Positions 560 through 21,553 of a stretch of DNA of 35,641 bases are shown one piece after another. The translations under genes and the position numbers were made by a program. Source of the DNA: Synergistaceae bacterium OttesenSCG-928-I11 (lineage in GTDB: Bacteria; Synergistota; Synergistia; Synergistales; Synergistaceae); contig JAJDHV010000009.1 of NCBI GenBank assembly GCA_030266365.1, forward strand, positions 1 to 35,641, in the 5' to 3' direction. Within the stretch, counting starts at the first letter, position 1, and each line of letters begins with the position of its first letter. Under the pieces are notes generated by a model. That model saw only the letters and a list, made by a program, of their open reading frames with translations, was not told the origin of the DNA and ran no database searches.

Positions 560-1846
560 TTACGTCGAACTTCCGCTATCCGCCGGGGAAAAAACGATGG
601 CCTGCTCGGAGAAAGCCTCGTCAGCGTCGTTCAACAACATCGCGCGGCATGAAATATAAAACGATATGAGCTGGCCAAAGTCGGAGAAATCGACGCCAGC
701 GAGCTTTTCGAGTTTATTCAGGCGATAGATGAGTGTGTTGCGGTGGATGAACAGTTTTTCTGCGGCGTGCAGTTTGTTGAACATGGACTGACAGTAGGCC
801 ATAAACGTCTCGATCAACTCATCCCCACCCGTAGTGTTCCGTGCTTTCGCGACTCTATCCCACAGGAAAGAGTGCTTTCTGCTCGGGCGCAACGCCATAA
901 GGAGCTGTTCTAGCGGCATCTTGTCGTACCGGAATATGCCCGGGCTGATTTGCATTTTTTCGGCCAGGTTCACGACGTCGACGGCATTGTCGTATGAAAC
1001 GGGTATCTCATATAGATTCTTAGCAGGGGAACCGATGCCCACGCACGTGTTGATCGACCGCTTCTGGAGGTTTGTGAAAATTTCCTCACATTGTTCATCG
1101 AGCGCTTCATAGCACTCCTCCATATTCACGGGCATCGCCTGAAACGCCCTCATGATGACAAACTTGTCCCTCGCCGTGGTCGATACCACATCCTGAGAAT
1201 TCGAGAACGTCTGCCGAATGACGTTGACTACGTTGCTCTGGGTCGATCTGTACTCCAGCTCCTCGAAGAATGGATCCTGCTTGTTGCTGTACGGCAATCC
1301 GAGATCGTTACACGCGGGATTCAACTCGCTGAAGCTCGAAAAGGCTACGGCGATGACGACGCGAGGGATGTCGAGGCGAATGTTCACTTTTTCCGCCCTC
1401 GAGAAGAGCAGCCTGGGATTGTCGCGGCTCTGGTCGAAACAGTAGATGTCCTTTACCAGTTCGTCCAAATATCCCTGCGAAGAGGAGCGCGATTCGATCA
1501 GCACTTTCTCGCGCAGGATGCTCTCGACCTGCTTTTTCACCAATAACGAGAATTTACTGACCACTTCCGGCTCACCCGCAATGCCGACCGATCCGACGAC
1601 GCTGCCATGGAAAAAAATCGGTACGGTCGCCCCGGGGTACCAAACGCCCATCCGTCTAGCAGCTTCGTTGTCGTCAAAGCTCATTTTGCCGTATTTCATG
1701 ACAGGAATCGACGGCGGATGTGCAGTCCCGATTCTTTCCTTAGCCGGGGCCCCTATGATGATTCCGTCTATGTTGGTTACGACCACACTCCTCTCCAGGG
1801 TCTCGGAAAGGAGATCGACGATTTCCTGCGCATAAATTTCCAGCAT
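560..1846 (-). CDS. CdaR/PucR-type transcriptional regulator
   Basis: This 428-residue protein has the layout of the sugar-diacid regulator (CdaR) family. Residues about 1-135 form the putative diacid-recognition sensor region (MLEIYAQEIVDLL...). A degenerate GGDEF-like middle follows. The C-terminal helix-turn-helix is the PucR type, with FIHRNTLIYRLNKLEKLAG at about residues 365-385. Such proteins sense small organic acids or purine breakdown products and usually control an adjacent catabolic operon. It is divergent from the B12-protein/hydantoinase-like pair, which makes that pair its most likely target. AAAGGA precedes the ATG by about ten bases. The family is clear; the ligand is unknown. 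Confidence 0.85.
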   Translation of the reverse strand: MLEIYAQEIVDLLSETLERSVVVTNIDGIIIGAPAKERIGTAHPPSIPVMKYGKMSFDDNEAARRMGVWYPGATVPIFFHGSVVGSVGIAGEPEVVSKFSLLVKKQVESILREKVLIESRSSSQGYLDELVKDIYCFDQSRDNPRLLFSRAEKVNIRLDIPRVVIAVAFSSFSELNPACNDLGLPYSNKQDPFFEELEYRSTQSNVVNVIRQTFSNSQDVVSTTARDKFVIMRAFQAMPVNMEECYEALDEQCEEIFTNLQKRSINTCVGIGSPAKNLYEIPVSYDNAVDVVNLAEKMQISPGIFRYDKMPLEQLLMALRPSRKHSFLWDRVAKARNTTGGDELIETFMAYCQSMFNKLHAAEKLFIHRNTLIYRLNKLEKLAGVDFSDFGQLISFYISCRAMLLNDADEAFSEQAIVFSPADSGSST

Positions 1847-2096: not shown

Positions 2097-3857
2097 TTGC
2101 GAGCAGAGGAATTCAACGAAAAAGTGGCACGTATCCTGACGGCGGACCTGCCGTCCGAAAAGGAGATCCACCGACGGGCGAAAGACATGGCGGAAAATCT
2201 TTCGATCGGTCGAACCGCGTTCATGCGAAAAATGGGCGTCGCTTCCGAAGTCGAGTACAAACGCGCCTGTATAAAAGGGCGGCGGATTATGTACCACGCA
2301 CACGTCGGCATGAGTACGTGGGCAGAAACCTCTCACGCCCTTAAACGCCTTTACGCGGAAATGGAATCGAGAGGGTTCGTCCAGGACAGAGCGGGCATCT
2401 GCCTCGACAGGAGGATGGGATTGCCCTCGGCGATGCGACATGCCGTGCCTGCGGAGACCGGGCCTATTCTCGAGACGGATGAAGATTGGCGCGACGTTGC
2501 GCTCGCAGCTCCGATCCAGCCGCACATGGGAGATTTCATGATCGGCTTCCCCGCCTCTGCCGAGAACGCGTCCAAGGCCCTCCGGGTAGGTGTGACGACT
2601 GTCGGCAACCTGTCGCAGTTTTTCTCGCACGAGGTGCCGATGTGGAAAGACCCTATATATACGACCGCCGAGACAACACTCGCCATCGCTCTGATGGGTC
2701 GCTTCCGTGATAGCGGAACGCTTCTGCATTCCTATCTCGACGACGGCTTCGGAGCACTCTTCTTCGACTCTGCCACTGTTGCCGGATGGGCGTTGTTGGA
2801 GCGTTATATCGTCGAGGAACTCTTGGGCGCGAAACTGGGGCACTGCATGGGCGGGTTGATATCAGACCCCATCAAACGTTCCGGCTGGATTTTCGCCCTC
2901 GACGAGATCCACGATCACGACTGTATCGGGACCATGTTCTTCGGCGACACCATCTCCTTTAGCCACGATTTCGACAAAAACAGGGGCCTCGTAGCGGAAT
3001 ACCTCACCTGGGATATTATGACGCAACTGGAGTGCCCAACTGGGCATGGCGTTCTCTCCATGCCGGTCACGGAAGCTGTACGCGTTCCGTCTATCGAGGA
3101 GATCGTGGAGGCACAGGTGTTCGCCAGGCGAATCGAAGAGGGTGCACGACGGATGCACCGCTACGTCGACTTCTCGGCGCCGAGGGCGTTTGCGCGACTC
3201 GTATGCGACGGCGGACGCAGAGTCTATGAAAACGCCATAGCCGGCTTAGGCGACGCCGGCGTAAATCTTAAGGATCCCGTACAGATGCTCTACGTCCTGA
3301 AACGGATCGGCCCTGCCGACTTCGAGGAGATGTTCGGCGCTGGCGAAGCGGACGAAAACAGCCCCCGCGGACGAAGACCAGTCGCCAGAAACGACGTCTT
3401 CGTCGAGTCGGACCGTCGGATCGAAGTCGAGTCGAAGTGGTTCACATCCTCGGCCATCCGTGCCGCAGTCCGCTCGCGGCGCTTTCTGCTTGCCTCGACC
3501 GATGTGCACGAACACGCGCTATACGTCATGCGCACCATTATCAGGAATTGTGACGGGATTGTCGTCGATATCGGCCCAGAGAAAAACCCCGACGAAGTCG
3601 CGGAGGCGTGCCTGGAGCGCGGCGCGGACGTGCTGCTCATAAGTACGCACAACGGAATGGCCCTGGAATACGCTCGCCTCCTACTGGAGGAATTGGAGGA
3701 GCGAAACGTAGATATCCCCGTCGTAATGGGCGGCGTCCTGAACCAAAAGATCGAGGAGGCGGCGATGCCCGTCGATGTCGACGATGCGCTTGTTTCTTTG
3801 GGCATCCACCCCGCAAGGACCCTCGAACGCCTCGCCTACATTCTCAAGGGGTTATGA
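2097..3857 (+). CDS. Cobalamin-binding mutase-like protein (glutamate mutase E-like barrel plus B12 domain)
   Basis: The protein has 586 residues. The start is TTG, preceded by GGAGG at seven bases. The C-terminal part (from about residue 460) looks like a B12-binding Rossmann domain: D469-x-H471 for the cobalt-ligand loop, S516 and GG at 545-546. Two positions deviate from the usual DxHxxG...SxL...GG motif: the loop glycine is Ala and SxL is SxH. Residues about 60-370 resemble the TIM-barrel subunit of methylaspartate (glutamate) mutase, for example GFPASAENASKALRVGVTTV. This would be a single-chain fusion of what are separate E and S subunits in glutamate mutase. The stop overlaps the next ATG (ATGA), so the two are translationally coupled. 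A carbon-skeleton or amino-group mutase is inferred; the substrate is unknown. Confidence 0.6.
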   Translation: MRAEEFNEKVARILTADLPSEKEIHRRAKDMAENLSIGRTAFMRKMGVASEVEYKRACIKGRRIMYHAHVGMSTWAETSHALKRLYAEMESRGFVQDRAGICLDRRMGLPSAMRHAVPAETGPILETDEDWRDVALAAPIQPHMGDFMIGFPASAENASKALRVGVTTVGNLSQFFSHEVPMWKDPIYTTAETTLAIALMGRFRDSGTLLHSYLDDGFGALFFDSATVAGWALLERYIVEELLGAKLGHCMGGLISDPIKRSGWIFALDEIHDHDCIGTMFFGDTISFSHDFDKNRGLVAEYLTWDIMTQLECPTGHGVLSMPVTEAVRVPSIEEIVEAQVFARRIEEGARRMHRYVDFSAPRAFARLVCDGGRRVYENAIAGLGDAGVNLKDPVQMLYVLKRIGPADFEEMFGAGEADENSPRGRRPVARNDVFVESDRRIEVESKWFTSSAIRAAVRSRRFLLASTDVHEHALYVMRTIIRNCDGIVVDIGPEKNPDEVAEACLERGADVLLISTHNGMALEYARLLLEELEERNVDIPVVMGGVLNQKIEEAAMPVDVDDALVSLGIHPARTLERLAYILKGL

Positions 3858-5833
3858 GCGAGTCGGCGATCGGGATCGACGTTGGCGGGACGTTTGTCGA
3901 CGTCGTTCTTATGCGTGGCGGAGACGTTGCCTGGAGTTCCAAATTCCCCTCGTCGTCGCCCGATTTCGGCGACAGGCTGGCTGAAACGTTGCAACAAGCG
4001 GTGCATTCAGCGAAAGGACTTGAGATCAATGAAATATCGCGAGTGTGTCTCTGTTCGACGCTTGCCACAAACGCGCTCGCAAAAGGAGGATTTCGCCCCG
4101 CGCTGCTCGTTCTTATCGGCTATCCCCAAAACTGCATCGACGACGTCCTGAGCGAGACGCACAACATGCCGGACCTCCTGGTCGCCCGCGCGCAGGGCGG
4201 ACATGACAGGAACGGAGACGAGCGTGCGCCGCTCGATGAAAGCGCCTTACTGGAAACGGCGAAAAAAAATGCCGAGCGCGTCGAGGGAATCGGAATCTCC
4301 TCTTTTTACAGCACTAGAAATCCCACACACGAGATCGAGGCAAAAAAAATTTTTGACGACGCGTGTGCTGCGCCGTGCGTCTGCGGCAGCGAGCTCTCGA
4401 ATGGGTTGAACGCTGTACGGCGCGCCGTATCATGCGCGCTGAACGCCTCGCTGATTCCAATCGCCAAGGATATGATCGACGGCGTACGTCGATCCATGCA
4501 GTTCGCCGGGCTGAATGTCCCACTATTCATTGTAAGAGGCGACGGAAACCTGATGGATGCCCGCACAGCGGAATTACATCCTATACAGATGCTGCTATCT
4601 GGCCCCGCAGCGAGCGCAATCGGCGCGATCGAATCCATGAAGCGCTCTGTGCACCTGGAAGAAAGAGATTTCCTCGTGCTCGACATGGGCGGGACTACGA
4701 CAGACATCTCTTATATTTCGAACGGAGCATTCCACATAGCATCGTGTGGTGGGTACATCGAGGGGTATCGCACAATGGTCCGGACCGCGAATGTCCATAC
4801 TTTCGGGCTCGGTGGGGACAGCCTCGTCGACTTCTCTTCGGAGCCGTTCGCGATCGGCCCCGACCGCGTCGCACCCATTTCCTCGCTTCCATATCATACC
4901 TGCGATTGGCGCCTGCTTCTCGATAGATCGAAGGGGAGCAATCCAGTGTTCGTCGTTCCCGGCGAGCGATTCGCGTCTTCCGGTACTAATTCGGATATCT
5001 TTCTCGAGCACCTGCAAAAGGTCGGTGCAGACGAGTGGGAGAGTGTCGTCGCGTTGACGTCGGAGCGCGACTACGCAGAAAAAACACTTCGTTCGCACGA
5101 AAACGCTGGCCGTATCCAGCGCTGTGCTTTCACCCCTACGGACGCGCTAATTCTGCTTGGAGTGTACCAGACCGAAAGCGTCGAACCGGCGCGAAAAGCG
5201 GCAGAATGCATCGTGGAAACACTCGATTCCAGCACAATCCAAACACCGCTCGACTTGGCCCGCCGCGTCCGGTCGCTCGTCTCCACTGCACTTGCAGAAC
5301 GAATCTTTCGTTTTTTAATGCTTCATGAGGGATTCTCCCCAGCCTTTCTCGACGGGCCGGACGGGCGACTGATGTTGGACGTCATCCTAGGGGGAACATG
5401 TGAGATGTTCGCGCTCAAGCCATGGATACGCCGCCCCATTGCCTGCTTGGGTGCGCCGACCCCGGCGTTTGCAGGCGCACTCGAAGAGCTGACCGGGACA
5501 ACGTGCGTCCGCTTCGAGCACGGCGCGGTCGGAGGCGCTATCGGGGCTGCACTGGCCAGCCGGCACGCACACTACACGGTGTGGATACAATACCTGCGGG
5601 ACGCCGCCTTGTATCGTGCGCATCTCCCTAACGGAATCGCGGATTTCGAAGATCTGGAAACTGCGGTCGACGCGACGCACGAAAAAATGCTCGCGTATCT
5701 CCTCCACGCGTCGGACATTTCCCTCTCGATCCGGTGCGAGCGGATCGACCGAACCGCACATATCGGGCCGCGTGTCAAAGGCGGTAAAACGCTCTACTTC
5801 GGAACCGAACTGTTCTTTTCCGTCGAACGATAA
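3854..5833 (+). CDS. Hydantoinase/oxoprolinase (HyuA)-family protein
   Basis: The 659-residue protein starts at the ATG that overlaps the preceding stop. AAGGGG is the Shine-Dalgarno. Residues 6-13 read IGIDVGGT, the phosphate-1 motif of the Hydant_A_N ATPase fold. The second phosphate motif DMGGTTTD is at 277-284. Family members are ATP-dependent hydantoinases, 5-oxoprolinases or acetone-carboxylase-type subunits and share the actin/Hsp70 fold. No HyuB partner is visible. Its partner is instead a B12 mutase-like protein. The glutamate-mutase helper MutL/GlmL also belongs to this ATPase superfamily, so a reactivase role is possible but unproven. An ATP-dependent ring-opening enzyme for a lactam or imide is the alternative. 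Confidence 0.75.
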   Translation: MSESAIGIDVGGTFVDVVLMRGGDVAWSSKFPSSSPDFGDRLAETLQQAVHSAKGLEINEISRVCLCSTLATNALAKGGFRPALLVLIGYPQNCIDDVLSETHNMPDLLVARAQGGHDRNGDERAPLDESALLETAKKNAERVEGIGISSFYSTRNPTHEIEAKKIFDDACAAPCVCGSELSNGLNAVRRAVSCALNASLIPIAKDMIDGVRRSMQFAGLNVPLFIVRGDGNLMDARTAELHPIQMLLSGPAASAIGAIESMKRSVHLEERDFLVLDMGGTTTDISYISNGAFHIASCGGYIEGYRTMVRTANVHTFGLGGDSLVDFSSEPFAIGPDRVAPISSLPYHTCDWRLLLDRSKGSNPVFVVPGERFASSGTNSDIFLEHLQKVGADEWESVVALTSERDYAEKTLRSHENAGRIQRCAFTPTDALILLGVYQTESVEPARKAAECIVETLDSSTIQTPLDLARRVRSLVSTALAERIFRFLMLHEGFSPAFLDGPDGRLMLDVILGGTCEMFALKPWIRRPIACLGAPTPAFAGALEELTGTTCVRFEHGAVGGAIGAALASRHAHYTVWIQYLRDAALYRAHLPNGIADFEDLETAVDATHEKMLAYLLHASDISLSIRCERIDRTAHIGPRVKGGKTLYFGTELFFSVER

Positions 5834-5911: not shown

Positions 5912-6898
5912 TTATATATCCACCTCTGTACCTATGCCTCTTGTTATCGCGTTTTCGTACACTATATTGGCAGCCACCACGTCCAGAACCGCGTATCCCA
6001 CAGTTTTCAGCACGGTTATCTCGTCGTCGGAGCTTCTGCCCACCAATTTGCCCGCAAGTACGTCGCCTATCTCTCCTGCAATTTTGTCAGCTTTGTAGTC
6101 GCCATTTTTTATCGGTATCAGGAAGTCCCCAGCTTCGGCCATCACGGTTTCACGATTATCCACGAATACCCTCGCTCGATTTAAGAGACGCGTATCAAGC
6201 TCTTGCGTGGTTGGAAGGTATGAACCCACCCCATTTACGTGCGCTCCTTTTTTCACCATGGTTCCATCGAATACAGCCGTGCTGGATGTTGTCACCGTCG
6301 TTATTACATCCGCACCGTCAATTGCCTCTGCAGGTGATTTCGCCGCAACCAGCCCTGCTCCGTACTTCTCTGCGAGGGCGCGGTTCGCCTCTATGAAGGT
6401 CGATATTCTAGCCGCATCTACGTCGAAAATGCGTACTTCCTTTATATCGCGGACACACAACACGGCTTCGAGCTGAGAAACGGCCTGCCCTCCCGTTCCA
6501 AATAGCGCGAATACACTTGCGTCACGGCGAGCCAGAGTGTCCGTGGCCACTCCCGATATTGCCCCCGTGCGGATTCTTGTCAACTCCGTGCCAGCCAGCA
6601 TTACCTTTATGAATCCGGTCTGCAAGTCGAAGAGTAACACCTGCGCAGGAACGGATGTCAAGCCGCGTTTAATATTTTCGGGGAACACAGAAACGAGCTT
6701 CACCCCCACCTGCTTCACATCGCCCTTGACATACGCAGGCATAATCAGCACGAGGTCGCGCCCATCCAAATCGAAGCATGTTCTCACCGGTACCTCAGTT
6801 TCTCCAGCCGAGTGAAGAAGGAACGCTTTCTTGTTGGACTCAATAGCTTCCTTCATTGAGAGCAGTTCTCGCACTTCTTTCGCGTTTATCAATAACAT
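5912..6898 (-). CDS. Ornithine cyclodeaminase/mu-crystallin family, probably an imine reductase
   Basis: The 328-residue protein is full length for the family. The dinucleotide-binding loop FGTGGQA is near residue 135. The substrate-side residues GVKLVS and TRIRTGA are also conserved. At the position of the catalytic Asp of true ornithine cyclodeaminase (Asp228 in the Pseudomonas enzyme) this protein has GSYLP with Tyr227. GS(Y/F/H)xP is typical of family members that reduce cyclic or linear ketimines, such as pyrroline-2-carboxylate reductase. I therefore favour an NAD(P)H-dependent imine reductase over a cyclodeaminase. GGAGG lies eight bases before the ATG. It follows the TRAP/epimerase block on the same strand, separated by a repeat copy. 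Confidence 0.8.
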   Translation of the reverse strand: MLLINAKEVRELLSMKEAIESNKKAFLLHSAGETEVPVRTCFDLDGRDLVLIMPAYVKGDVKQVGVKLVSVFPENIKRGLTSVPAQVLLFDLQTGFIKVMLAGTELTRIRTGAISGVATDTLARRDASVFALFGTGGQAVSQLEAVLCVRDIKEVRIFDVDAARISTFIEANRALAEKYGAGLVAAKSPAEAIDGADVITTVTTSSTAVFDGTMVKKGAHVNGVGSYLPTTQELDTRLLNRARVFVDNRETVMAEAGDFLIPIKNGDYKADKIAGEIGDVLAGKLVGRSSDDEITVLKTVGYAVLDVVAANIVYENAITRGIGTEVDI

Positions 6899-7193: not shown

Positions 7194-8210
7194 TTATTTC
7201 CTGAGAATAAATCCACCGCCGCGCGGATCGTGCGGATCGTAGGTAAACGTGTTGAAGCCGGTCATATATGCACTCCCCGTAACTTCAGGTATTATCGCTT
7301 TCCGATCGTAGTAGTCGATCACGTCGATTATCTTCGCGGAGAATTGCGTGTTGATTATACTTCGATGCTTCAGCACCTCTCCAGGTCCGATAAGCCCTTT
7401 GTCGTAAAGCAATGCCAATCTACCGCTCGTTCCGGTTCCGCACGGCGACCTGTCCACCTCTCCAGGGGGATATATGACCGCGCTTTTCGAATCCAGTCCT
7501 TTATCGGCCCTGCTTAACGGCGCGGTTATCTGAACGAGGCCAACACCTTTGAGGTATGTTTTTTCAGGATGCGTCAGATCGTACCGACTATTGATGCTGT
7601 TGTATATTTCCATGCCGGCAGCTATGACTTCTTCGACATTTTCTTCCTCCACCGCAAGCCCGAGGTCCTCCGCACTTACCACGCCGTATATATTGCCGCC
7701 GTACGTGACGTCGGCTAGTATCGTTCTGCCACGGAATTCAACCTCCAGGTCCCTGGCTATTACTATCGCGGGGGCGTTGACGAACGTAACTGATTCCACC
7801 CTGCCGCCTACAACGTTGACTTTAGCGCTCACCAACCCGGCAGGCGTTTCAATCTTTACCTCCGTTACCGGCTCCATTACCTCAACCATTCCGGTTTCGA
7901 CCAGCATAGTCGCCACGCCTATGGTGTTGTGTCCGCACATCGGCATATAGCCGTGCGACTCGCAAAAAAACACCCCGACATCCGCCTCGTCGAGAGTGGG
8001 CTCCGTCAATATCGCAAGAGATGTGTTGGAGCGTCCTCTTGGTTCCGATATGAGAAACGTACGAATATAGTCATAGTGCTCTTTCATGAAGAGCATCTTC
8101 TCCGACATATCGCACCCGCGCAGGCGCGGCATTCCGGCGAAGACGGTTCTCGTCGGCTGTCCGGCCGTGTGGGTATCTGCAGTCCAAATCATCTTTTTAT
8201 AACTAATCAA
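7194..8210 (-). CDS. Proline racemase-family epimerase (Cys/Cys type)
   Basis: The family motifs are complete: DTHTAG near the N-terminus, the first catalytic cysteine in MCGHNTIG (Cys92) and the second in DRSPCGTGTSG (Cys257). Two catalytic cysteines mark a racemase or epimerase (proline racemase, hydroxyproline 2-epimerase). The trans-3-hydroxyproline dehydratases of the same family have Thr at one site. I chose a TTG at 8210 because GGGGGA lies eight bases upstream; an in-frame ATG at 8192 is possible but has no Shine-Dalgarno. The length of 338 residues is normal. It lies downstream of the DapB-like gene and the TRAP genes, which supports a role in imino-acid catabolism. Proline versus hydroxyproline cannot be told from these motifs. 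Confidence 0.85.
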   Translation of the reverse strand: MISYKKMIWTADTHTAGQPTRTVFAGMPRLRGCDMSEKMLFMKEHYDYIRTFLISEPRGRSNTSLAILTEPTLDEADVGVFFCESHGYMPMCGHNTIGVATMLVETGMVEVMEPVTEVKIETPAGLVSAKVNVVGGRVESVTFVNAPAIVIARDLEVEFRGRTILADVTYGGNIYGVVSAEDLGLAVEEENVEEVIAAGMEIYNSINSRYDLTHPEKTYLKGVGLVQITAPLSRADKGLDSKSAVIYPPGEVDRSPCGTGTSGRLALLYDKGLIGPGEVLKHRSIINTQFSAKIIDVIDYYDRKAIIPEVTGSAYMTGFNTFTYDPHDPRGGGFILRK

Positions 8211-8325
8211 GATTTTATTCCCCCAAACTTCAAACGACAAAATTGTGCCCAGGTATAGACAAACGCTACTAGTAGGCTCGCGGATTCGAGAGAGCCAGAT
8301 GGTTTCACGATGAAAATTTGGGATT

Positions 8326-8392: not shown

Positions 8393-9184
8393 TTATGCTT
8401 CGATGATTTTCATCAGATTGGTAATAAATGTGCCCGCCGGCATTGCAGCCAGCTTTTCAGCCGTCATAAGTACGCCGTTCGTATAGATTTCGCTGGAGTA
8501 ACCTTCAACGGTTATTTTTACCGTCTCATCGCCGCAACTCATCAAAATCTCGTGTTCGGCAAATGCCCCCGGCCATGGAAGTCTCCGCGAAAGCAGCCTA
8601 ACGTCGTTCACGGTGGCGCCCATCGCGCCAGGGTAAACCTCGCGAGTTTTCGCCTTGCAGACGTCCCCCCCTATCACCTCCGCCAGCCAGCAAGCCGTAC
8701 CACTCGGAGCGTTGGCCATCTCGTCGGTAAACTGATCGAGTACAGAGACGTATGGGTAATAGGCGCGCATTTTGCGGACAAAATCTGCGATCATGTTCAT
8801 GCCAATGCTGTAGGTTGCAATAACGGCCCAGCGCAGTCCCTTTTCCTCTACGCGAGCACGGCAGGCTGCCTCATCTGCTTCGGTCAGTCCGGTCGTTCCG
8901 ATAACAGCATTCAGATTTGCGTGTAAATACGACGTGAAATTTTTCTGCAACAGATTGGCCGACGTAAAATCGATGACGATATCCGGGCGAGTTTCTGCCA
9001 ATCCCTCGTCAAGGTTCGAAGATGCAGTAACCTCCAGAGGCTCGATGCCGGCAAGAATTCCCAGATCTTTACCTACGTCCAAGCACCACCCTCCGACAAG
9101 CTGAATGTCATCGCGAGCTGCTATGGCACGCACAATTGCCTTACCTACATTGCCGGAAGCACCGGACAAAAAAACTCGTATCAT
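8393..9184 (-). CDS. DapB-like dehydrogenase lacking the DapB catalytic residues
   Basis: The 263-residue protein matches dihydrodipicolinate reductase (DapB) along its length: GASGNVG for the cofactor, IDFT and GTTG in the Rossmann half, SIGMN, APSGTA and the C-terminal NG motif. The segment aligned with E. coli HHRHK (His159, His160, Lys163) reads FTDEM here. The catalytic His and Lys therefore become Phe152 and Met156, and His160 becomes Thr153. It probably does not make tetrahydrodipicolinate; another NAD(P)-dependent reaction on an amino or imino acid is inferred. GGAGG lies seven bases before the ATG. It is placed between dctM and the epimerase gene. Confidence 0.8.
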   Translation of the reverse strand: MIRVFLSGASGNVGKAIVRAIAARDDIQLVGGWCLDVGKDLGILAGIEPLEVTASSNLDEGLAETRPDIVIDFTSANLLQKNFTSYLHANLNAVIGTTGLTEADEAACRARVEEKGLRWAVIATYSIGMNMIADFVRKMRAYYPYVSVLDQFTDEMANAPSGTACWLAEVIGGDVCKAKTREVYPGAMGATVNDVRLLSRRLPWPGAFAEHEILMSCGDETVKITVEGYSSEIYTNGVLMTAEKLAAMPAGTFITNLMKIIEA

Positions 9185-9273: not shown

Positions 9274-10575
9274 CTATTTAGAAAATGCAAGGCTTGGAAG
9301 CCATGTGATAAGCTGCGGTACGAACGTAAAAATAAGCACGCAACCGATCAACAAGAACATTAAAGGCAAAACACCTCTTACTACATCCTCATATGATTGT
9401 CCGCTTATCGAAACTGTGGCAAATAGATTATGCCCGAACGGTGGCGTCACGTATCCCACAAGCAGATTAATACAGAACAAAACACCCAGATGCAATTCAT
9501 CGAGTCCCAAGGCAACACCAATAGGAATCAGAATAGGAGCGAATACGATAATGCCAGCTGCGGTTTCCATAAGACAGCCCACAACGAGCAAGACCATCGT
9601 CAACATGATAAGATACATAATCTTTCCGGTCAGCAACGGAACAATCGCGTTTGCGATATTATGAGGAATTCTGGCAGTTGCCAAGCACCAGCCAAATATG
9701 CCGGAAGCACCGATCAAAAAACCAACCATGGCGCTGGTCTCCACTGTCTTCAGCAGTGAATCCCACAGAATTTTCAGGTTCACAGTTTTATAACACAACC
9801 CCAGCAGAAGAGTGTATGCCACTCCGAATGACGCTGCTTCGGTTGGTGTGAATATGCCGCCGTAAATGCCCCCCATAATGATAATGGGCACGCATAATGT
9901 TGGTAAAGCCTTATATGTAAGGATTAAAAACCCCTTCGTCGTATAATTACGTTCAATTTTTTTAACATTACATTTACTTGTGATGAAAAGGTTCGCGGCT
10001 ATCAGAACTCCCGTGATGAAAAGACCTGGAATTATGGCACCTACAAACATTTTAGGGATAGAGAGGTTCATGGTTGCACCGTAAATCACCATGGTAATGC
10101 TAGGTGGAATAATGGGACCTAGTGTGCCTGCGGCTGCAACAAGCCCAGCCGCAAAACGTGGCTGATAACCAGCTTCATTGATCATTACCGGTAACATAAT
10201 AGTTCCTATAGCAGCAACAGTCGCAGGCCCCGAACCGGTTAGCGATGCGAAAATGGCACAAGCCACAACAGTTACCGTACCCAAGGCACCTGGCAATTTG
10301 CCACATGCTGCCATCAACCAGTCAACAAGCCGTTTGGATAAACCGGCTTTTTCCATCAAGTACCCCATCAATACAAACAGCGGTATCGCAAGTAGTGGAA
10401 ATGAGTTCATTGCCACAATAATACGTTGAGGGGTGACTATTAGCGGGCGCAGCTGCGTGACCAGTAAAAATACGACGCCTGACATTTCAATTGACAGAGC
10501 AACGGGCAGCCCCATAAACATAAAAACAAACAAAGCACCAAAGACCAATAAGGTCATTTCAGCTAATCCGAACAT
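9274..10575 (-). CDS. dctM: TRAP transporter large membrane subunit DctM
   Basis: The 433-residue protein is very hydrophobic with about a dozen membrane segments. It shows the DctM features GLPVALSIEMSGV near the N-terminus, PLFVLMGYLMEKAG, the TGSGPATVAAIG loop and GPIIPPSI. It forms the sodium-coupled channel of a tripartite ATP-independent periplasmic transporter. GGAGG precedes the ATG. It is downstream of the dctQ gene by 15 bases and upstream of the DapB-like gene. The substrate is set by the DctP protein; a carboxylate or amino/imino acid is likely. Confidence 0.93.
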   Translation of the reverse strand: MFGLAEMTLLVFGALFVFMFMGLPVALSIEMSGVVFLLVTQLRPLIVTPQRIIVAMNSFPLLAIPLFVLMGYLMEKAGLSKRLVDWLMAACGKLPGALGTVTVVACAIFASLTGSGPATVAAIGTIMLPVMINEAGYQPRFAAGLVAAAGTLGPIIPPSITMVIYGATMNLSIPKMFVGAIIPGLFITGVLIAANLFITSKCNVKKIERNYTTKGFLILTYKALPTLCVPIIIMGGIYGGIFTPTEAASFGVAYTLLLGLCYKTVNLKILWDSLLKTVETSAMVGFLIGASGIFGWCLATARIPHNIANAIVPLLTGKIMYLIMLTMVLLVVGCLMETAAGIIVFAPILIPIGVALGLDELHLGVLFCINLLVGYVTPPFGHNLFATVSISGQSYEDVVRGVLPLMFLLIGCVLIFTFVPQLITWLPSLAFSK

Positions 10576-10590
10576 TTCATCCTCCCCAAA

Positions 10591-11073
10591 TTATTCAGGT
10601 TTATCCGGGAATAAAACATTAAACATGTCGGATAACGCGTGTATGAAGATCCCAGCACTGCCAACAGGAACGGCCATATATACATACGACATCGGTATTC
10701 CTGTGGCAGGACTGAGTTGCTGCGCTACGACAGGTATCAGTAAAACGCTGTAATAAATCAAAACTCCGGCGGCTATCAATGTAATGACGCTGATTACAAC
10801 CGTATGGATACGCCTTTTAACGCCTTTTAGATTCTTGACAAAGAAATCAATTGCCGCATGACCTTTTTTCTTGGACAGAATAGATGCTCCCAGCATATTA
10901 ATCCATATAAAGCAGTATCTAGCCACTTCTTCGGTCCAAGATGGCGATGCGTTTAATAATCTTGTAAATACTTGTATGACACACGATGCCGTAAGTACAA
11001 CAAGAAAAATTATCGCTATTGGTTTATATATCCTATCGAGAATATCGCTGCACTTTTTTATATAGCTACACAA
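10591..11073 (-). CDS. dctQ: TRAP transporter small membrane subunit DctQ
   Basis: The 160-residue protein has four predicted membrane segments and the family signature around TEEVARYCFIWINMLGAS. Translation starts at TTG (11073); AGGAGG lies eight bases upstream. It partners the DctM protein in the membrane. The 170-base gap to the dctP gene contains a strong hairpin, so it is probably expressed at a lower level than dctP. Confidence 0.88.
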   Translation of the reverse strand: MCSYIKKCSDILDRIYKPIAIIFLVVLTASCVIQVFTRLLNASPSWTEEVARYCFIWINMLGASILSKKKGHAAIDFFVKNLKGVKRRIHTVVISVITLIAAGVLIYYSVLLIPVVAQQLSPATGIPMSYVYMAVPVGSAGIFIHALSDMFNVLFPDKPE

Positions 11074-11091
11074 AAACTACGCCTCCTGTGC

Positions 11092-11159
11092 GGAAAAAAC
11101 TAGGGCCAGGACTAGTATTGTCTAACTAGAAAGTGGTATATAAAACTAGTCCTGGACCC
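11092..11159 (-). terminator. Partial terminator/attenuator between dctP and dctQ
   Basis: On the minus strand GGGTCCAGGACTAGT pairs with ACTAGTCCTGGCCC (one bulged base), followed by TAGTTTTTT. Placed between the solute-binding gene and the membrane-subunit genes, it likely reduces readthrough. This gives excess DctP over DctQM, as is common in binding-protein-dependent systems. Confidence 0.7.
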
Positions 11160-11246
11160 TTTAGCTTAGCATGTACTCGAAAGACGCGAAAACCTCAGAG
11201 ATTAAATACCGTTCATTAAAAGCAGAAACCGTTCACGTCCTTAACA

Positions 11247-12248
11247 CTATTTGGTCAATTCCAGGACAGCGTCAATCAAGTCCGAGCCGATTTGATCTCT
11301 AAATTTGTCGTAAACAGGAAGAACTGCTTTTTTAAACGCATCGATATTGACGTCACCCTGATTCACTTTCATCCCAAGATCCGCAAGTTCCTTAAAAATA
11401 GCTTGTTCGCGTGCGACGACAAAGTCCCACTGTATGGCTGCCGCTTCTTTGGCTGCCTTTATAAAAAAGTCCTTTTCTTCTTGTGAAAACGTATTCCACA
11501 AGCGCCCGGATATGATCATCGCTACGGGGTTCATGAAGGTATAGGTCCCAGATAAATAATCAGCTGCCTCGTAAAAACGCTCATTGAGTATAGCCTGGAC
11601 TGCATTTTCTGCGCCATCAATAGTGTTTTGTTGAAGCGCCGTGAAAACCTCCGACCACGACATTGGCAACGCGTTGGCCCCAAGAGCTCGGTAGGTATCC
11701 ATATAAAGAGCGTTTTCAGGAACACGAATCTTTAAACCTTTGAAGTCTTCCAGTTCTCTGATTGGCTTTACCCTTGTGAATGCATGTCTGAATGCTCCTT
11801 GTCCCCTGGAAAGCACAACCAAACCCTTTGACGCCATTGCATCATCCACGGGTTTTACAACATCGGAGTAAACGACCTTTTTGGCGTTATCGTAACTTGT
11901 AAAGACATAAGGCAGGTCGAAAAGCATAGCTTGAGGCACAAATGGACCTAGGGCCATGTTGCTGATTATAGCCATGTCAATAGTACCAATCTGCATACCT
12001 TCGATCATGTCTCGCTCCACACCAAGTTGGCTGTTACCAACTATGTCGATTTCTACGCTGCCTTTTGAGTAGTCATGTATCCTCTTCGCAAATTCCACAG
12101 CAAAATAATGATAGAAGCTATCCTCTGTCTCGATCAATACATGCCCTAATTGGAAGGTCTTTGCGGGCTTTTGGGCTGCCGATGCGGCGCTACTTTGAAG
12201 GGAGAACATCAATAGACCGATGACACACAGCATTAACATTTTTTTCAT
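11247..12248 (-). CDS. dctP: TRAP transporter solute-binding protein DctP
   Basis: The 333-residue protein has a typical signal peptide (MKKMLMLCVIGLLMF..., cleaved near SAASA). The DctP-family core follows: the QLGVERDMIEGMQIGTIDM stretch and, later, the conserved Arg of LKIRVPEN, which contacts substrate carboxylates. I chose the ATG at 12248 because GAGG lies nine bases upstream; an ATG twelve codons earlier lacks this. It heads the operon dctP-dctQ-dctM-dapB-like-epimerase. The ligand cannot be read from the sequence; the companion enzymes suggest an amino or imino acid. Confidence 0.92.
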   Translation of the reverse strand: MKKMLMLCVIGLLMFSLQSSAASAAQKPAKTFQLGHVLIETEDSFYHYFAVEFAKRIHDYSKGSVEIDIVGNSQLGVERDMIEGMQIGTIDMAIISNMALGPFVPQAMLFDLPYVFTSYDNAKKVVYSDVVKPVDDAMASKGLVVLSRGQGAFRHAFTRVKPIRELEDFKGLKIRVPENALYMDTYRALGANALPMSWSEVFTALQQNTIDGAENAVQAILNERFYEAADYLSGTYTFMNPVAMIISGRLWNTFSQEEKDFFIKAAKEAAAIQWDFVVAREQAIFKELADLGMKVNQGDVNIDAFKKAVLPVYDKFRDQIGSDLIDAVLELTK

Positions 12249-12549
12249 CTCATTCAACCTCTTTCTGAATTGTAATTTATTCATAGCATCAACGGCACAT
12301 CAAAACCACACAATGAAGTATCCCCCCTTGTCATGACACGAAATTGGACCCACGTAGCTTGTCAAATGATATGCGACAGCTTCCTGAGTTTGTTCAAGAC
12401 GAATTGGAGTAGATAAACCCAATTCAGCGCAAACAGTGTGGATTGGTCGTCTTGGTTCTGATATTGTTCGAGCTGCCTGTTGGCAACTTCAATGCTAAAA
12501 AAGATTATAATTCTGTAAAATAGGGTTTCGAGAGTTACGAGAGCTCTCA
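12249..12549. other. AT-rich upstream region of the TRAP operon
   Basis: I see no convincing gene in these 300 bases. They contain the candidate dctP promoter and, next to the repeat edge, a CGAGAG-tta-CGAGAG direct repeat and the palindrome GAGAGCTCTC (12540-12549), which are possible operator sites. A 77-codon minus frame crossing the repeat edge has no family resemblance that I recognise. Confidence 0.4.
12504..12531 (-). promoter_or_regulatory. Candidate promoter for the TRAP operon
   Basis: TCGAAA (12531-12526) and a perfect TATAAT (12509-12504) are 16 bases apart on the minus strand. This is about 255 bases upstream of dctP, leaving a long leader. The -35 matches the consensus at four of six positions. 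Confidence 0.45.
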
Positions 12550-12830: not shown

Positions 12831-13805
12831 CTATTTCATATACCCTCCAGCAAACGCGGCGAGCGTCCGCGCCGTTTGTTCGGCGTCGGACAGGTTCGCG
12901 ATCTCGTTCGCGGTCAGGCGGTAGCGCACCGGGATGCCGAGTGCGGCGGCCGGGATTCCTGCGGCGAGCAAATGTCCGCCCGCCGTCTCCGTGTCGGCGC
13001 GGTCGAGGATCTCGTGCTGCAGGCCGACCGCTTCGGCATGTGCCGCGTCCTCCAGGCGTTGCAGGACGTCCCTGCAATAGACGGCGGAGCGATCCTTCCA
13101 CTTTAGTACTGGCCCGGCGCCGGTTTTGAGTGCACTCGAGGCGTCCGATATGTCGATTGCCACGCCGTACTCCGCTTTCAGAGAGAACGATGCCGCCTTA
13201 GCGCCCCTCTGCCCGACCTCGCTCTGCGAGGCGAAGACGACGGCGACGCCCGCGTCGCTATTGCAGGTCGTCTGCAAAAAACGGATCGCAGCTGCACATG
13301 TCGCGACGGAGCCAACCGAGGGCCCCATAGCAACGTCGCCCTGCAGGAGTGTCTCAGACGCGAAGGACGCCGTCGAACCGACCTCCACCCCGTGGGAGGA
13401 GAGGCCGGTGTCGACGAAGAGGTCCGCCATCGTCGGTTTTTTTGCCTCGTCGGCGGGAAGTCCCGAGAGAAGGACGCCGCAGAGGCCGTTTTCGAATCGG
13501 ACGCGCGCGCCGACAATGGCGCCCGGGTCGAGCGCGCCGAGCGGCATCAGGCGGATACGCCCGTCCTGCTCCACATATTTCACCATGAATCCGGCGTCGT
13601 CGAGTCTGACGAAAACGGCGACGCGGATATTTTTTGCGTCGCCCCTGCGGGCTACCAGGCTGCCAAGTGCGTCGAATGCAATTTCGTCTGCGAGACCCCG
13701 CACGAGGTCCGCCACGACCTCCGCGCGCGCGCGCGCGAAACCGCACACGGCTGGGACGGAGGCAATTTTTTCGAAAATCGAGAAGATCGAACCGATATCG
13801 CTCAT
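12831..13805 (-). CDS. M42 aminopeptidase homologue, predicted catalytically inactive
   Basis: The 324-residue protein aligns with its two neighbours over its whole length but has lost the chemistry. The metal ligand His of AHTDEVG is Arg67 (VRLDDAG). The bridging Asp of DDRLGC is replaced (GPSVGS). The catalytic Glu of CEEVGLRGA is Ser (QSEVGQRGA), and the final His of YIHSAN is Leu (YRLTAN). The second Glu and the distal Asp remain. The frame is intact with no frameshift, so the protein seems to be kept. M42 peptidases form dodecameric TET shells; a structural or regulatory subunit that co-assembles with the two active paralogues is a reasonable inference. Confidence 0.85.
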   Translation of the reverse strand: MSDIGSIFSIFEKIASVPAVCGFARARAEVVADLVRGLADEIAFDALGSLVARRGDAKNIRVAVFVRLDDAGFMVKYVEQDGRIRLMPLGALDPGAIVGARVRFENGLCGVLLSGLPADEAKKPTMADLFVDTGLSSHGVEVGSTASFASETLLQGDVAMGPSVGSVATCAAAIRFLQTTCNSDAGVAVVFASQSEVGQRGAKAASFSLKAEYGVAIDISDASSALKTGAGPVLKWKDRSAVYCRDVLQRLEDAAHAEAVGLQHEILDRADTETAGGHLLAAGIPAAALGIPVRYRLTANEIANLSDAEQTARTLAAFAGGYMK

Positions 13806-13808
13806 ACG

Positions 13809-14837
13809 CTACTCTCCCATCGTTGCGATGAACAGCGCGGTCAGGTCGAGCACGGCCTTCGCGTCCGGCATGTACACGACGTTGTTCGCACTGTGGATGT
13901 ATCTCGTCGGCGCGGAGACCCCGAAAGTCAACGATCCTCCGGCGCGGACGTGGATCGAGCCGGAATCCGTCCGACCGCCCATGCCGGAGCGCGGCTGCCA
14001 GGGAATCCCCGCCGCATCAGCCGCACACGTCATCTTTTCGATCACCTCGCGGTTGTACACGGTTCCACCGTCGGCGACGGAGACGACAGCGCCCGCACCT
14101 TGCCTCGTCGCGCGCAGGTCGGGCCGGACGGACGGCATGTCGCCCGCGCTCGTCCCCTCCAGGACGAGCGTCATGTCGGGGCGGACCCGCTCCGTGAGGG
14201 CGGACGCGCCGCGCAGGCCGACCTCCTCGCAGGTGGAGAAGGCGAACCAGGTGTCGAACGGGATGTTTCCGCGGATCAGCGAGACCATCACGGCGCAGCC
14301 CAGACGATCGTCGATCGCCTTGCCGCGGAATCGCCCCTCGCCGAACGCGCCCGGTTCGTTGTCGAACATGACCGGGTCGCCGACGCGGACGTGCGACGCC
14401 GCCTCTTTTTTGCTGCGCGCGCCGATGTCGATGTAGAGCGCGTCGATCGGCGGAGAAATTTTTTTCTCGGCCTCGCTCGTCAGATGGATCGCCTTGACGG
14501 CGACGACGCCGGGCAGTCGGCGTTCGCCGATCCGCACGCGCTGCCCAAGCAGGACGCGCGGATCCAGCGTGCCGACCGGGACGAACTTGAGCAGCCCCTC
14601 GTCCGTGATGCGGAAGACGAGCATGCCCACCTCATCTGTGTGCGCGCAGACCATCAGCCTGCGTGCGGGGGCGCGCGCTCCTTTTTTGAGGGCGATCAGA
14701 CTGCCCATCGCGTCGACCGTCATCTCCTCCACGTGCGGCGCGATCATCCCCTCTATTGCCTCACGCACGCCGTCCTCGTATCCCGAGACGCCGTCGAGCG
14801 CGCAGAGGACTTGCATCAACTCCATCATGTCTGTCAT
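13809..14837 (-). CDS. M42 family (TET-type) aminopeptidase
   Basis: The 342-residue protein has all family residues: His and Asp in CAHTDEVG, the bridging Asp in AIDDRLGC, the Glu pair in CEEVGLRGA, the acidic ligand in LVLEGTSAGD and the last His in YIHSANN. It is a cytosolic dimetal aminopeptidase that removes N-terminal residues from short peptides. The start ATG overlaps the stop of the upstream paralogue (ATGA). Three bases separate its stop and the start of the inactive homologue. Coupling with oligopeptide import genes indicates a role in peptide nutrition. Confidence 0.92.
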   Translation of the reverse strand: MTDMMELMQVLCALDGVSGYEDGVREAIEGMIAPHVEEMTVDAMGSLIALKKGARAPARRLMVCAHTDEVGMLVFRITDEGLLKFVPVGTLDPRVLLGQRVRIGERRLPGVVAVKAIHLTSEAEKKISPPIDALYIDIGARSKKEAASHVRVGDPVMFDNEPGAFGEGRFRGKAIDDRLGCAVMVSLIRGNIPFDTWFAFSTCEEVGLRGASALTERVRPDMTLVLEGTSAGDMPSVRPDLRATRQGAGAVVSVADGGTVYNREVIEKMTCAADAAGIPWQPRSGMGGRTDSGSIHVRAGGSLTFGVSAPTRYIHSANNVVYMPDAKAVLDLTALFIATMGE

Positions 14838-15889
14838 GCCGCCTCGCCTCCGCGCACACGCAAGCCCTTAAAATCGCGGCAGAATGCGTAAAGCAGGCGC
14901 GCCAGGGTCTCCGCGTCGTCGACGCAGAGCGTCTCCACCGGCGTGTGCATGTACTTCACCGGCAGGGAGATCACCGCCGTCGTCGCGCCGACCCCGGCGA
15001 TCTGCGCGAGCCAAGCGTTCGTGTTGCTCGTCTTTGGAATAGCCTCCAGCTGATAGGGCAAGCCCCCCCGCTCCGCGGCGTCGATCAGGTGCTCAGCCAC
15101 GCGCGGAGAGCTGTTCGCTCCCCTGCCGACTACCGGGCCGCTGCCCGGCTCGTGCACCCGCGCGTACCGCTCCGCGTCGCCGGTCCGAGCGTGGCACGCA
15201 TCGACAACCAAGATATAGTCGGGCCGCTCCTCCGTCGCACACTGCACAGCGCCGTAATAACCCGACTCTTCCCTAGTCGTCGCTGTGACGACGAGGTTGC
15301 AGGGCGGATTCGTGTTCGCGAGCAACTCCAACGCGCGCACGACGCAGGCGAAGCCGGCGCGGTTGTCCATGGATGGGCCCGCGATATTGTTGCCCAGAAG
15401 CTCCACCGGATCTGCGTCGAAAGCGACGAGGTCGCCCGGGCGCACGAGCTCTCGCGCCCGGGCGCCGGTCATGCCGAGGTCGAGCGTCATCTCGCCGACG
15501 GGAACCGGTTTCAGGTCGTCTCCCTCGTTCTGGAGATGGGGGGGGAGGGCGCTGATCACGCCCTTTATCGGCCCTCCCCGCCCAAGCACAATCATTTCAT
15601 TCGAGAGCAGCGTCCGCGGGTCGACGCCGATCGGCACGAAGTGCGCGAATCCGTCGTCCGTCACGTCCGCGATCATCAGTCCCACCTGGTCGATGTGAGC
15701 GTCGAGCATCAGCGTCGGCGCACCGGTCTCGGCACTCCGCATGTAGCCGACGACGTTGCCGAACCGGTCGACACGGACCGAGTCCACGAACGGCCGCATT
15801 CTCTCGGCAGCGGCGCGCGAAATTTCGCCCTCGCCGCCCGAGACGCCGCGGATCGCAGACAGTTCCATGATTGCCCTCTTCAAGTCCAT
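14834..15889 (-). CDS. M42 family (TET-type) aminopeptidase
   Basis: The 351-residue protein has DAHIDQVG, MDNRAGF, TREESGYYGA, VVDACHA and YMHTPVE, so all metal ligands and the catalytic Glu are present. It has diverged from the next gene (DAHID for AHTDE), suggesting a different side-chain preference. The Shine-Dalgarno AGAGAGG lies about seven bases before the ATG. It follows the oligopeptide-binding-protein gene by 55 bases in the same probable operon. Confidence 0.92.
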   Translation of the reverse strand: MDLKRAIMELSAIRGVSGGEGEISRAAAERMRPFVDSVRVDRFGNVVGYMRSAETGAPTLMLDAHIDQVGLMIADVTDDGFAHFVPIGVDPRTLLSNEMIVLGRGGPIKGVISALPPHLQNEGDDLKPVPVGEMTLDLGMTGARARELVRPGDLVAFDADPVELLGNNIAGPSMDNRAGFACVVRALELLANTNPPCNLVVTATTREESGYYGAVQCATEERPDYILVVDACHARTGDAERYARVHEPGSGPVVGRGANSSPRVAEHLIDAAERGGLPYQLEAIPKTSNTNAWLAQIAGVGATTAVISLPVKYMHTPVETLCVDDAETLARLLYAFCRDFKGLRVRGGEAA

Positions 15890-15944
15890 CGAAACACCTC
15901 TCTGCCGCAGCGCGCCGCACAGGTGCGACGCACGCGATACGCCG

Positions 15945-17444
15945 CTATTTCCAGTTGAAGTCGAAGACGTAGTAGAAGCCGAGGCCCATGTCGGCGTTCA
16001 GGTCCTTCGACCACGCGAACGGCTTCGTCCGGAAGAGGATGGGGATCATGCCGCAAATGTCCGAGAGATAGTCGTTCAGCTCGCGGTAGATCGCCTGACG
16101 CTTCGTGTGGTCGAGCTCGACCGCGCCCCTGTCGAAGAGCTCGTCGATCTTCTTGTCGCGGTACTTGACCGCCGCGATTTCGACCGAGCGGGAGTGCGCG
16201 GAGCGCGCGAAGAAGCTGTAGTCGCGGTCGCAGGTCAGCCCCATGAGACCGAAGCCGTACGTCCCCTTGCGCATGTTCTGGATGACGGCGCTCGTGTCCA
16301 TCGGCTGGATCGTACATGTCACGCCGATGTCCGCGTAATTTTGCTGCAGCACCTGTGCAATCTTCGGCCAGTAGCTGCTGCCTATGATGAGCATCTCGCC
16401 GAGATCCACGCCGTCCGGGTAACCCGCTTCGGCGAGCAGCGCCTTCGCCTTCTCCGGATCGTACGTGTACTTGATGCCGTCGTTCGGCGCGTCGACGAGG
16501 TACTCCGGGTTCATCATGAAGTCGGCGATCTCTGCCAGCCCCTCGTACGATGCGATGACGACGGCCTCTTTGTCCATTGCGTAGGCGAGCGCCTGGCGCA
16601 ATTTTTTGTTGTCGAACGGTTTGCGGTCGATGTTGATCGCCATGTAGCTGATGTGGTTTTCCTTGCCGAGCTTGGTCGTGTATTTTTTGCTGTCGACGAT
16701 GCCGCCCCAGTTGGAGAGCGGAATCTGCACCATGTCGAGCTCGCCGCTCTCGAACGCGATCAGCGCGCTCGACGTGTCGGTCATGATGCGATAGGTGATC
16801 GTCTTGATCGACGGCGCGCCTCTGTAATAGTCGTCGAACGCCACGAACTCCACCCGGCTGCTGGGGTCGTACTTCACGACCTTGTACGGACCGGTGCCGC
16901 AGTCGACCGGCGTCGTGCCGAACTTGTCGCCCGCCGCCTCGACCGCCTTACGGTTCAATATATCGATGCCGACGATGTAGTTGAGCGCCGCGGTCATGAT
17001 CTCCTTCGTCTTGATCTCGACGGTCTTGTCGTCGATAGCGCGCACGGTGTCGACCGGCATCATGCGGTTCGCCATCGCAGGGGCCTTCTTCGCGCGCTCG
17101 AACGAGAAGACGACGTCGTCCGCTGTGAGCTTCTCGCCGTTGTGGAACTTCGCATCGCGCAGCTTGAACGTGTACGTCATACCGTCGTCCGCCAGCGTGT
17201 ACGACTCTGCGAGCCGCGGCGAGAGCGACGTATCGTCCTCCATGAAGAACATGCTCTCGTACATCTGCGCGAGCAGTTGCAGGTCGGCAATCGCCGTCGT
17301 GTAGTACGGGTCGAGGGACGTCATCTCGCTCGGGATCGTCAGGTTGATGTGCGTTTTGTTCGTCGCAGCACACGCGGCGAAACCGGCCGACAGCAGCAGA
17401 AACACCGCCATTGTCAGTGCAACGAAAGCCTTCTTCCTATACAT
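15945..17444 (-). CDS. Oligopeptide ABC transporter substrate-binding protein
   Basis: The 499-residue protein is of the SBP_bac_5 (OppA/DppA) family. It has an N-terminal signal sequence with a Cys in LSAGFAACAA that may be a lipoprotein site, although Phe at -3 is atypical. Family landmarks include the SLDPYY segment, LAESYTLADDGMTYTFKLRDAKFHNGE with the usual TADDVVFSFERAK, and DPEKAKALLAEAGYPDG. The ATG at 17444 was chosen because GGAGG lies seven bases upstream and the signal peptide follows directly. It sits between the M20 gene and the M42 trio and should deliver peptides to the OppBCDF permease. Confidence 0.93.
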   Translation of the reverse strand: MYRKKAFVALTMAVFLLLSAGFAACAATNKTHINLTIPSEMTSLDPYYTTAIADLQLLAQMYESMFFMEDDTSLSPRLAESYTLADDGMTYTFKLRDAKFHNGEKLTADDVVFSFERAKKAPAMANRMMPVDTVRAIDDKTVEIKTKEIMTAALNYIVGIDILNRKAVEAAGDKFGTTPVDCGTGPYKVVKYDPSSRVEFVAFDDYYRGAPSIKTITYRIMTDTSSALIAFESGELDMVQIPLSNWGGIVDSKKYTTKLGKENHISYMAINIDRKPFDNKKLRQALAYAMDKEAVVIASYEGLAEIADFMMNPEYLVDAPNDGIKYTYDPEKAKALLAEAGYPDGVDLGEMLIIGSSYWPKIAQVLQQNYADIGVTCTIQPMDTSAVIQNMRKGTYGFGLMGLTCDRDYSFFARSAHSRSVEIAAVKYRDKKIDELFDRGAVELDHTKRQAIYRELNDYLSDICGMIPILFRTKPFAWSKDLNADMGLGFYYVFDFNWK

Positions 17445-17509
17445 TGTGGGACCTCCTCGAAAAATGTATTTATTGATCCGTCCGAAGACGTTCAATACGA
17501 AATTTTGAG

Positions 17510-20657: not shown

Positions 20658-20669
20658 CGTACGCACCCC

Positions 20670-21542: not shown

Positions 21543-21553
21543 CCCGTCGCCCC

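Follow-up and report, generated by a model that had tools for sequence, protein, structure and literature searches.

The window analysed here is the 35,641-nucleotide stretch of Synergistaceae bacterium OttesenSCG-928-I11 (contig JAJDHV010000009.1), in which positions 2097-5833 carry two overlapping genes. The first encodes a single-chain protein that resembles adenosylcobalamin (AdoCbl)-type mutases, and the second encodes an ATPase of the HyuA family with an ASKHA core. An earlier note on this DNA had proposed that the ATPase may take the role that MutL/GlmL plays for known B12 mutases, or that the pair may form a new ring-opening route. The two genes and their parts are as follows.

2097-3857, plus strand: single-chain AdoCbl-type mutase-like protein, 586 aa, TTG start
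2274-3161, plus strand: barrel half, residues ~60-355 (DSSP of the model, conservation, Foldseek)
3474-3854, plus strand: C-terminal B12-binding Rossmann domain, residues ~460-586 (PF02310, conserved columns)
3854-5833, plus strand: HyuA-like ASKHA ATPase, 659 aa (PF05378, PF01968)
3878-3901, plus strand: phosphate-1 motif D9-VGGTFV-D16 (equivalent of CapA Asp11)
4682-4705, plus strand: phosphate-2 motif D277-MGGTTT-D284 (equivalents of CapA Asp295 and Asp302)
4811-4822, plus strand: G320-G-D-S323 loop (alignment)

Architecture of the two proteins

The mutase gene has a GGAGG ribosome-binding site at 2085-2089, seven bases before its TTG start codon. As the earlier note had supposed, its single-chain product ends in a B12-binding domain: PF02310 matches residues 468-564 (E=1.1e-8, exceeding the gathering score), and the motifs D469-x-H471, S516-T-H-N-G and G545-G place the protein among the B12-binding proteins. 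In 39 homologues the fingerprint residues D469, H471, N519, G520, G545, G546 and N549 are invariant, and S516 and T517 are kept in at least 90%; in the window mutase the classical G following the B12-motif His is changed to A. No invariant Lys appears within residues 460-586 in the same alignment, which speaks against an OraE-type pyridoxal phosphate (PLP)-dependent aminomutase.

The remainder of the chain is best described by its predicted structure. Residues 1-460 give nothing above cutoff in Pfam or NCBIfam, and the glutamate mutase E family PF06368 gives no match in the Pfam search. The AlphaFold2 model (mean pLDDT 93.5) shows a TIM barrel and a B12 Rossmann domain, the AdoCbl-mutase fold class. 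Specifically, Foldseek against the PDB matches the model to methylmalonyl-CoA mutase (9e-13), glutamate mutase E (1cb7_B, 5e-9), ornithine aminomutase (4e-8), the folate and cobalamin domains of methionine synthase (3e-7 to 1e-6) and lysine aminomutase (2e-6), and the top 23 matches are all chains of methylmalonyl-CoA mutase, glutamate mutase E or ornithine aminomutase. The glutamate-mutase-E-like barrel of the earlier note thus stands as a fold and falls as a sequence relationship. A link by sequence profile was rejected, the hhalign comparison with glutamate mutase E giving a probability below 1% with one sequence and then with twelve, and the link rests on the fold. The arginine claw of glutamate mutase consists of R66, R100 and R149 with E171 and Y177 (PMC10947579); in a purely topological reading, R98 of the window protein lies on strand 2, and His and Asn occupy the places of R66 and R149, so that two of the three substrate-binding arginines appear to be missing. 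According to the model, the protein resembles AdoCbl mutases by fold; it was assigned to none of their sequence families, and we rate this mutase-type fold as much more secure than the full reading set out below.

The near-invariant residues of the barrel are H67, H69, R98, H143, D146, N171, H211, D216, E326 and R329. Among the 39 aligned sequences H143, D146, H211 and E326 are invariant, and H67 and H69 are kept in 38. Five of these residues, H67, H69, H143, D146 and H211, make up a His/Asp cluster spread over strands 1, 3 and 5 of the barrel, a possible binding site for a metal or for the substrate.

The second gene begins within the stop codon of the first, its ATG overlapping the mutase TGA (ATGA), as had been noted before. 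A start at GTG 3608, given by the mechanical open reading frame as an upstream extension, was rejected because the homology start and the ATGA overlap favour ATG 3854. The product carries PF05378 (1e-23) and PF01968 (7e-32), and its model (pLDDT 85.6) matches N-methylhydantoinase, acetone carboxylase and caprolactamase A in the PDB. With these domains and the DxGGTxxD and DxGGT motifs, it is a member of the HyuA family. Both ATP motifs, D9-VGGTFVD and D277-MGGTTTD, are conserved throughout the HyuA-like subfamily, and D9, G11, G12, T13 and D16 are invariant in the alignment. In caprolactamase CapA, mutation of Asp11 or Asp295 nearly abolishes activity, the D11A mutant being nearly inactive (PMC8453981).

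Sequence alignment further shows that a GGDS loop marks this subfamily, whereas HyuA proteins with HyuB have a GAGGGS loop, and that the GxxPGP adenosine motif of caprolactamase A is unconserved in it. No HyuB-like gene (CapB-type metal subunit) is found in the window, in agreement with the earlier note, or among the mutase loci examined in Synergistota, which sets the window ATPase apart from the ATP-dependent HyuAB amidohydrolases. Canonical HyuA-HyuB pairs do occur in our survey (loci L075 and L076), and the window protein is only ~20-26% identical to the canonical HyuB-adjacent HyuA proteins of the surveyed genomes. Nor is it MutL/GlmL by sequence (PF13941, 12.1 bits vs a cutoff of 27). 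The HyuA-like and MutL ATPase cores show weak homology (hhalign E=7e-4, probability 26%; Pfam cross-hits), weakly suggesting a distant ASKHA core in common and nothing closer.

Pairing and partner exchange

Separate searches of 188 Synergistota genomes for the mutase, for the HyuA-like protein and for MutL were followed by a comparison of coordinates. Relatives of the mutase occur at 31 loci in the genome collection, plus many Synergistaceae genomes. In the clade of the window mutase (clade I), all 18 loci have a directly adjacent HyuA-like gene on the same strand, 14 of them upstream and 4, including the window, downstream of the mutase; chance pairing is therefore rejected. In the paralogous clade II (~35% identical), all five complete loci have a MutL/GlmL gene directly downstream instead, and the two such genes tested score ~430 bits with PF13941 and ~320 bits with TIGR01319, above cutoff. 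No locus carries the partner of the opposite clade, and both pairs are present in five genomes. This partner separation would have a chance of 3e-5 (1 in 33,649) if the loci were independent, which they are not, so that the figure is descriptive only. In line with the pairing, the mutase and HyuA-like trees correlate (r=0.956, reached by 0 of 5000 permutations) and split alike into the upstream and downstream gene arrangements. The 18/18 and 5/5 pattern is that of a GlmL-like helper, namely a dedicated ASKHA ATPase beside an AdoCbl-type mutase.

An intermediate partial mutase with 42% identity (L064, genome G017, 4-1048) is cut by a contig edge. Next to the fragment lie a gene for a membrane transporter and one of the CdaR type, and its partner side falls off the contig.

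Synergistota have ten further strong HyuA-like genes at sites apart from the mutase. Nine of them are accompanied, within the fetched stretch, by a corrinoid protein, by MttB or by the RACo activator, versus none of 16 control loci, and the tenth sits on a 5.4-kb contig. Outside Synergistota, the idea that this subfamily is always corrinoid-linked was rejected, most full-length proteobacterial homologues being solo genes. A 668-aa N-methylhydantoinase-A-type protein of unassigned function is highly abundant alongside glycine-betaine corrinoid methyltransferases in Candidatus Formimonas warabiya strain DCMF (PMC9768040).

Other HyuA-like arrangements were also seen. In Desulfobacterota (L130:5780-8659, L131:5611-8472) a HyuA-like protein is apparently fused to DUF1638 (953-959 aa) near MttB, and in Synergistota (L073:4345-7146, L074:7771-10582) a HyuA-like gene stands beside that for a DUF1638 protein, with MttB genes nearby; from these gene contexts, the DUF1638-associated genes apparently form a second corrinoid-linked HyuA lineage. 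Additionally, a HyuA-like gene of 560-600 aa and a gene of ~437 aa (FFPAFDWAISPTHPEREERLLYT) recur as a conserved pair at L087:7958-10955, L132:6595-9614 and L133:3907-7067, and also at L134-L136. The L087 pair adjoins putative ethanolamine ammonia-lyase and EutA genes.

Neighbouring genes and the candidate pathway

The two genes are flanked by a divergent regulator and by a series of minus-strand metabolic and transport genes.

560-1846, minus strand: transcriptional regulator of the CdaR/PucR type with sugar-diacid recognition, GGDEF-like and HTH_30 domains, transcribed away from the mutase operon (PF05651 2.8e-29, PF13556 6.9e-16)
1847-2096, no strand: divergent intergenic region, holding the mutase ribosome-binding site
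5912-6898, minus strand: convergent gene for a protein of the ornithine cyclodeaminase/mu-crystallin family, of the cyclic-imine or ketimine reductase type (PF02423 9.5e-73)
7194-8240, minus strand: proline racemase-family protein with a Cys-Cys pair (PF05544 2.2e-101)
8393-9184, minus strand: DapB-like reductase (TIGR00036, 121.8 bits vs a cutoff of 122)
9274-12284, minus strand: TRAP transporter, DctM, DctQ and DctP (Pfam, neighbour tables)

The regulator is of the CdaR type that the earlier note had assigned, and its homologues (43-47%) lie beside the mutase in eight other loci (L010, L052-L055, L062, L063, L093). A scan of 1847-2096 for sigma-70-like promoters found none, the regional sites being not clearly above chance. 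The ornithine cyclodeaminase-family gene possibly belongs to the same pathway as the mutase, and the DapB-like reductase is a possible member. A 62% identical homologue of the window proline racemase-family protein directly follows the mutase and HyuA-like genes in L004 and L092. Most relatives have a different DctP gene after the mutase, and the two DctP types show no close match to each other.

The mutase family spans Synergistota, Desulfobacterota, Proteobacteria (rhizobial plasmids included) and Bacillota, and its rhizobial plasmid members carry no annotation beyond 'cobalamin-dependent protein' or hypothetical. The most frequent neighbour of the mutase across phyla is a ProC-like reductase, found at 18 of 24 non-Synergistota loci; ProC-like genes also lie near L002, L004, L054 and L056 and near the mutases on rhizobial plasmids. 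Other neighbours are transporters of the dipeptide, branched-chain amino acid or TRAP type, GntR or CdaR regulators, proline racemase-family genes and an AIG2/GGCT-like protein. The last is encoded by a 150-aa gene next to the mutases of Proteobacteria and Desulfobacterota (e.g. L003:9230-9682, L014:11778-12233), and its expected catalytic-glutamate position varies; in L018 the AIG2/GGCT-like sequence comes after an M19 dipeptidase within a single frame. Farther along the window, the minus strand of 12831-21827 forms a peptide-scavenging island with three M42 aminopeptidases, an M20 peptidase, an oligopeptide-binding protein and an Opp-type permease.

Proposed role of the ATPase and known systems

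We propose that the first gene encodes an AdoCbl-dependent single-chain mutase, using AdoCbl rather than methylcobalamin, which would bind B12 base-off/His-on via H471. The barrel over the corrin would hold a substrate resembling an amino acid, which the 5'-deoxyadenosyl radical would rearrange into a product closing to a cyclic imine. This product probably goes to a cyclic-imine reductase, because ProC-like genes are the commonest neighbours and ornithine cyclodeaminase-like, DapB-like and proline racemase-family genes lie near the window mutase. The HyuA-fold ASKHA ATPase, lacking the hydrolytic HyuB, would interact physically with the mutase and act on it, not on the substrate, its ATP binding and hydrolysis driving the release of damaged cobalamin or the loading of fresh AdoCbl. 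Such release or loading is the job proposed for GlmL/MutL, and cofactor exchange of this kind has been shown for the ASKHA-type reactivase EutA. That GlmL stands beside the sister mutase in the same bacteria suggests that the HyuA-like protein keeps a B12 enzyme working. We lean modestly towards the whole of this statement, an AdoCbl-type mutase with an amino-acid substrate, ProC-like handling and a HyuA-family ATPase replacing GlmL.

The observation made in the earlier note is borne out, and its first interpretation, a hydantoinase-family protein in the MutL/GlmL role, is the best supported of those weighed: the context supports it well, through GlmL at the paralogue and the corrinoid-linked sister genes, and reactivation itself is what we infer. 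The idea also survives the two outcomes that would have spoken against it, neither of which was seen, namely a lack of B12 or barrel similarity, or HyuA-like genes found with HyuB elsewhere and never with the mutase.

Several points weigh against the GlmL-like role. The barrel and glutamate mutase E are unconnected by sequence profiles in hhalign, and the 18 paired loci are of common ancestry and thus not 18 independent events. Of the full-length HyuA-like genes inspected outside Synergistota, most stand alone without a corrinoid link. Additionally, the orthologous mutases of Desulfobacterota and Proteobacteria (~50-58% identical) have no adjacent HyuA-like or MutL gene, and MutL is mostly absent elsewhere in the proteobacterial genomes, so that the helper is not universally required. 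A precedent for a reactivase-free enzyme is the ethanolamine ammonia-lyase of Acinetobacter, which functions without EutA (PMC9426561).

The ATPase may instead be a catalytic pathway enzyme, phosphorylating (or carboxylating) a cyclic amide or another substrate at the expense of ATP, with the mutase or another enzyme finishing the ring opening or rearrangement. The AIG2/GGCT family found at proteobacterial mutase loci is linked to 5-oxoproline; proline racemase, ornithine cyclodeaminase-like and ProC-like neighbours hint at cyclic amino acid chemistry, and ATP-dependent lactam activation is the chemistry of the HyuA family (PMC8453981). Yet the HyuB-type metal subunit is missing from the mutase loci examined, the adenosine-binding GxxPGP motif is missing, and close mutase orthologues with ProC-like genes have no adjacent ATPase. 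Moreover, GlmL fills the slot at the paralogous mutase, and corrinoid methyltransferases adjoin the sister HyuA-like genes. We consider such a route unlikely, and the ring-opening alternative of the earlier note is accordingly less supported. A cofactor-chaperone role of the MeaB/MMAA kind, in which the HyuA-like protein would load or proofread corrinoid on the mutase and not rescue inactivated enzyme, is also rather improbable. In the methyltransferase clusters RACo covers reductive activation, so that the HyuA-like protein beside it would have a role other than reduction, and mutase and methyltransferase contexts both need corrinoid delivery; direct evidence does not separate loading from rescue, and to our knowledge the two are not resolved for GlmL itself.

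That the first gene encodes a corrinoid methyltransferase (TIM barrel plus B12 domain), with a HyuA-like partner as in methylamine/betaine systems, would fit the methionine synthase matches and the sister HyuA-like genes adjoining MttB systems. We find this very improbable, as methylmalonyl-CoA, glutamate and ornithine mutases all have better Foldseek scores, RACo, MttB and a separate corrinoid protein are not near the mutase loci checked, and the paralogous mutase has GlmL, which we know only with AdoCbl mutases. Shared descent alone, without any functional tie, would suit a set of 18 loci in one clade, but the adjacency is kept despite the change of gene order between two sub-groups whose trees mirror each other, and this account is hardly credible.

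GGDS-loop HyuA-type ATPases without HyuB may represent an unrecognised line of corrinoid-enzyme maintenance in Synergistota, serving a radical B12 mutase, where GlmL is replaced, and corrinoid methyltransferases beside RACo, and the mutase may be a new AdoCbl enzyme of amino acid catabolism; this wider proposal is tentative, and we stop somewhat short of endorsing it. If HyuA-type ATPases can do the job of GlmL, this would also point to a function for the unexplained hydantoinase-like proteins that are expressed together with betaine methyltransferases. The known AdoCbl mutase reactions are few, and the ProC-like reductase, the racemase and the amino acid and peptide transporters offer a handle on a new one. 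The paralogue pairs with two ATPases in one genome provide a direct testbed for a HyuA-type protein in the GlmL job.

Among known systems, the HyuA/HyuB amidohydrolases (N-methylhydantoinase, 5-oxoprolinase, CapAB) share the HyuA fold and both phosphate motifs with the window ATPase, which differs in lacking HyuB and GxxPGP, in having GGDS instead of GGGS and in its C-terminal sequence (VGAP). The corrinoid-enzyme cluster of strain DCMF, likened here by description, has a methyltransferase instead of a mutase context and contains a HyuA-like protein that, at 668 aa, is close in size to the window ATPase (PMC9768040). Methylmalonyl-CoA mutase with MeaB/MMAA is the best fold match, a single chain of barrel and C-terminal B12 domain with a dedicated, nucleotide-driven helper; that helper is a G-protein, distinct from the window ASKHA ATPase, and the window barrel carries no CoA-mutase sequence family. 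OraE (ornithine 4,5-aminomutase), to be considered with lysine 5,6-aminomutase, is likewise a single chain of barrel and B12 domain in an amino-acid context, and its system has a GlmL-related accessory gene, Or-4 (NF040744), comparable to the helper of the window pair. Unlike OraE and KamDE, the window protein has a Rossmann domain without the invariant PLP lysine, and no small subunit is seen. GlmES with GlmL/MutL differs in having two subunits where the window has one chain, in a barrel that profiles do not align with that of the window, in an arginine claw of which two of three residues appear, by topology, to be replaced in the window mutase, and in a helper of the MutL type instead of the HyuA type. 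On the other hand, both systems combine an AdoCbl-type barrel with a B12 domain bearing the DxH motif and place an ASKHA ATPase gene beside the mutase, and the clade-II paralogue adjoins a genuine GlmL-family gene.

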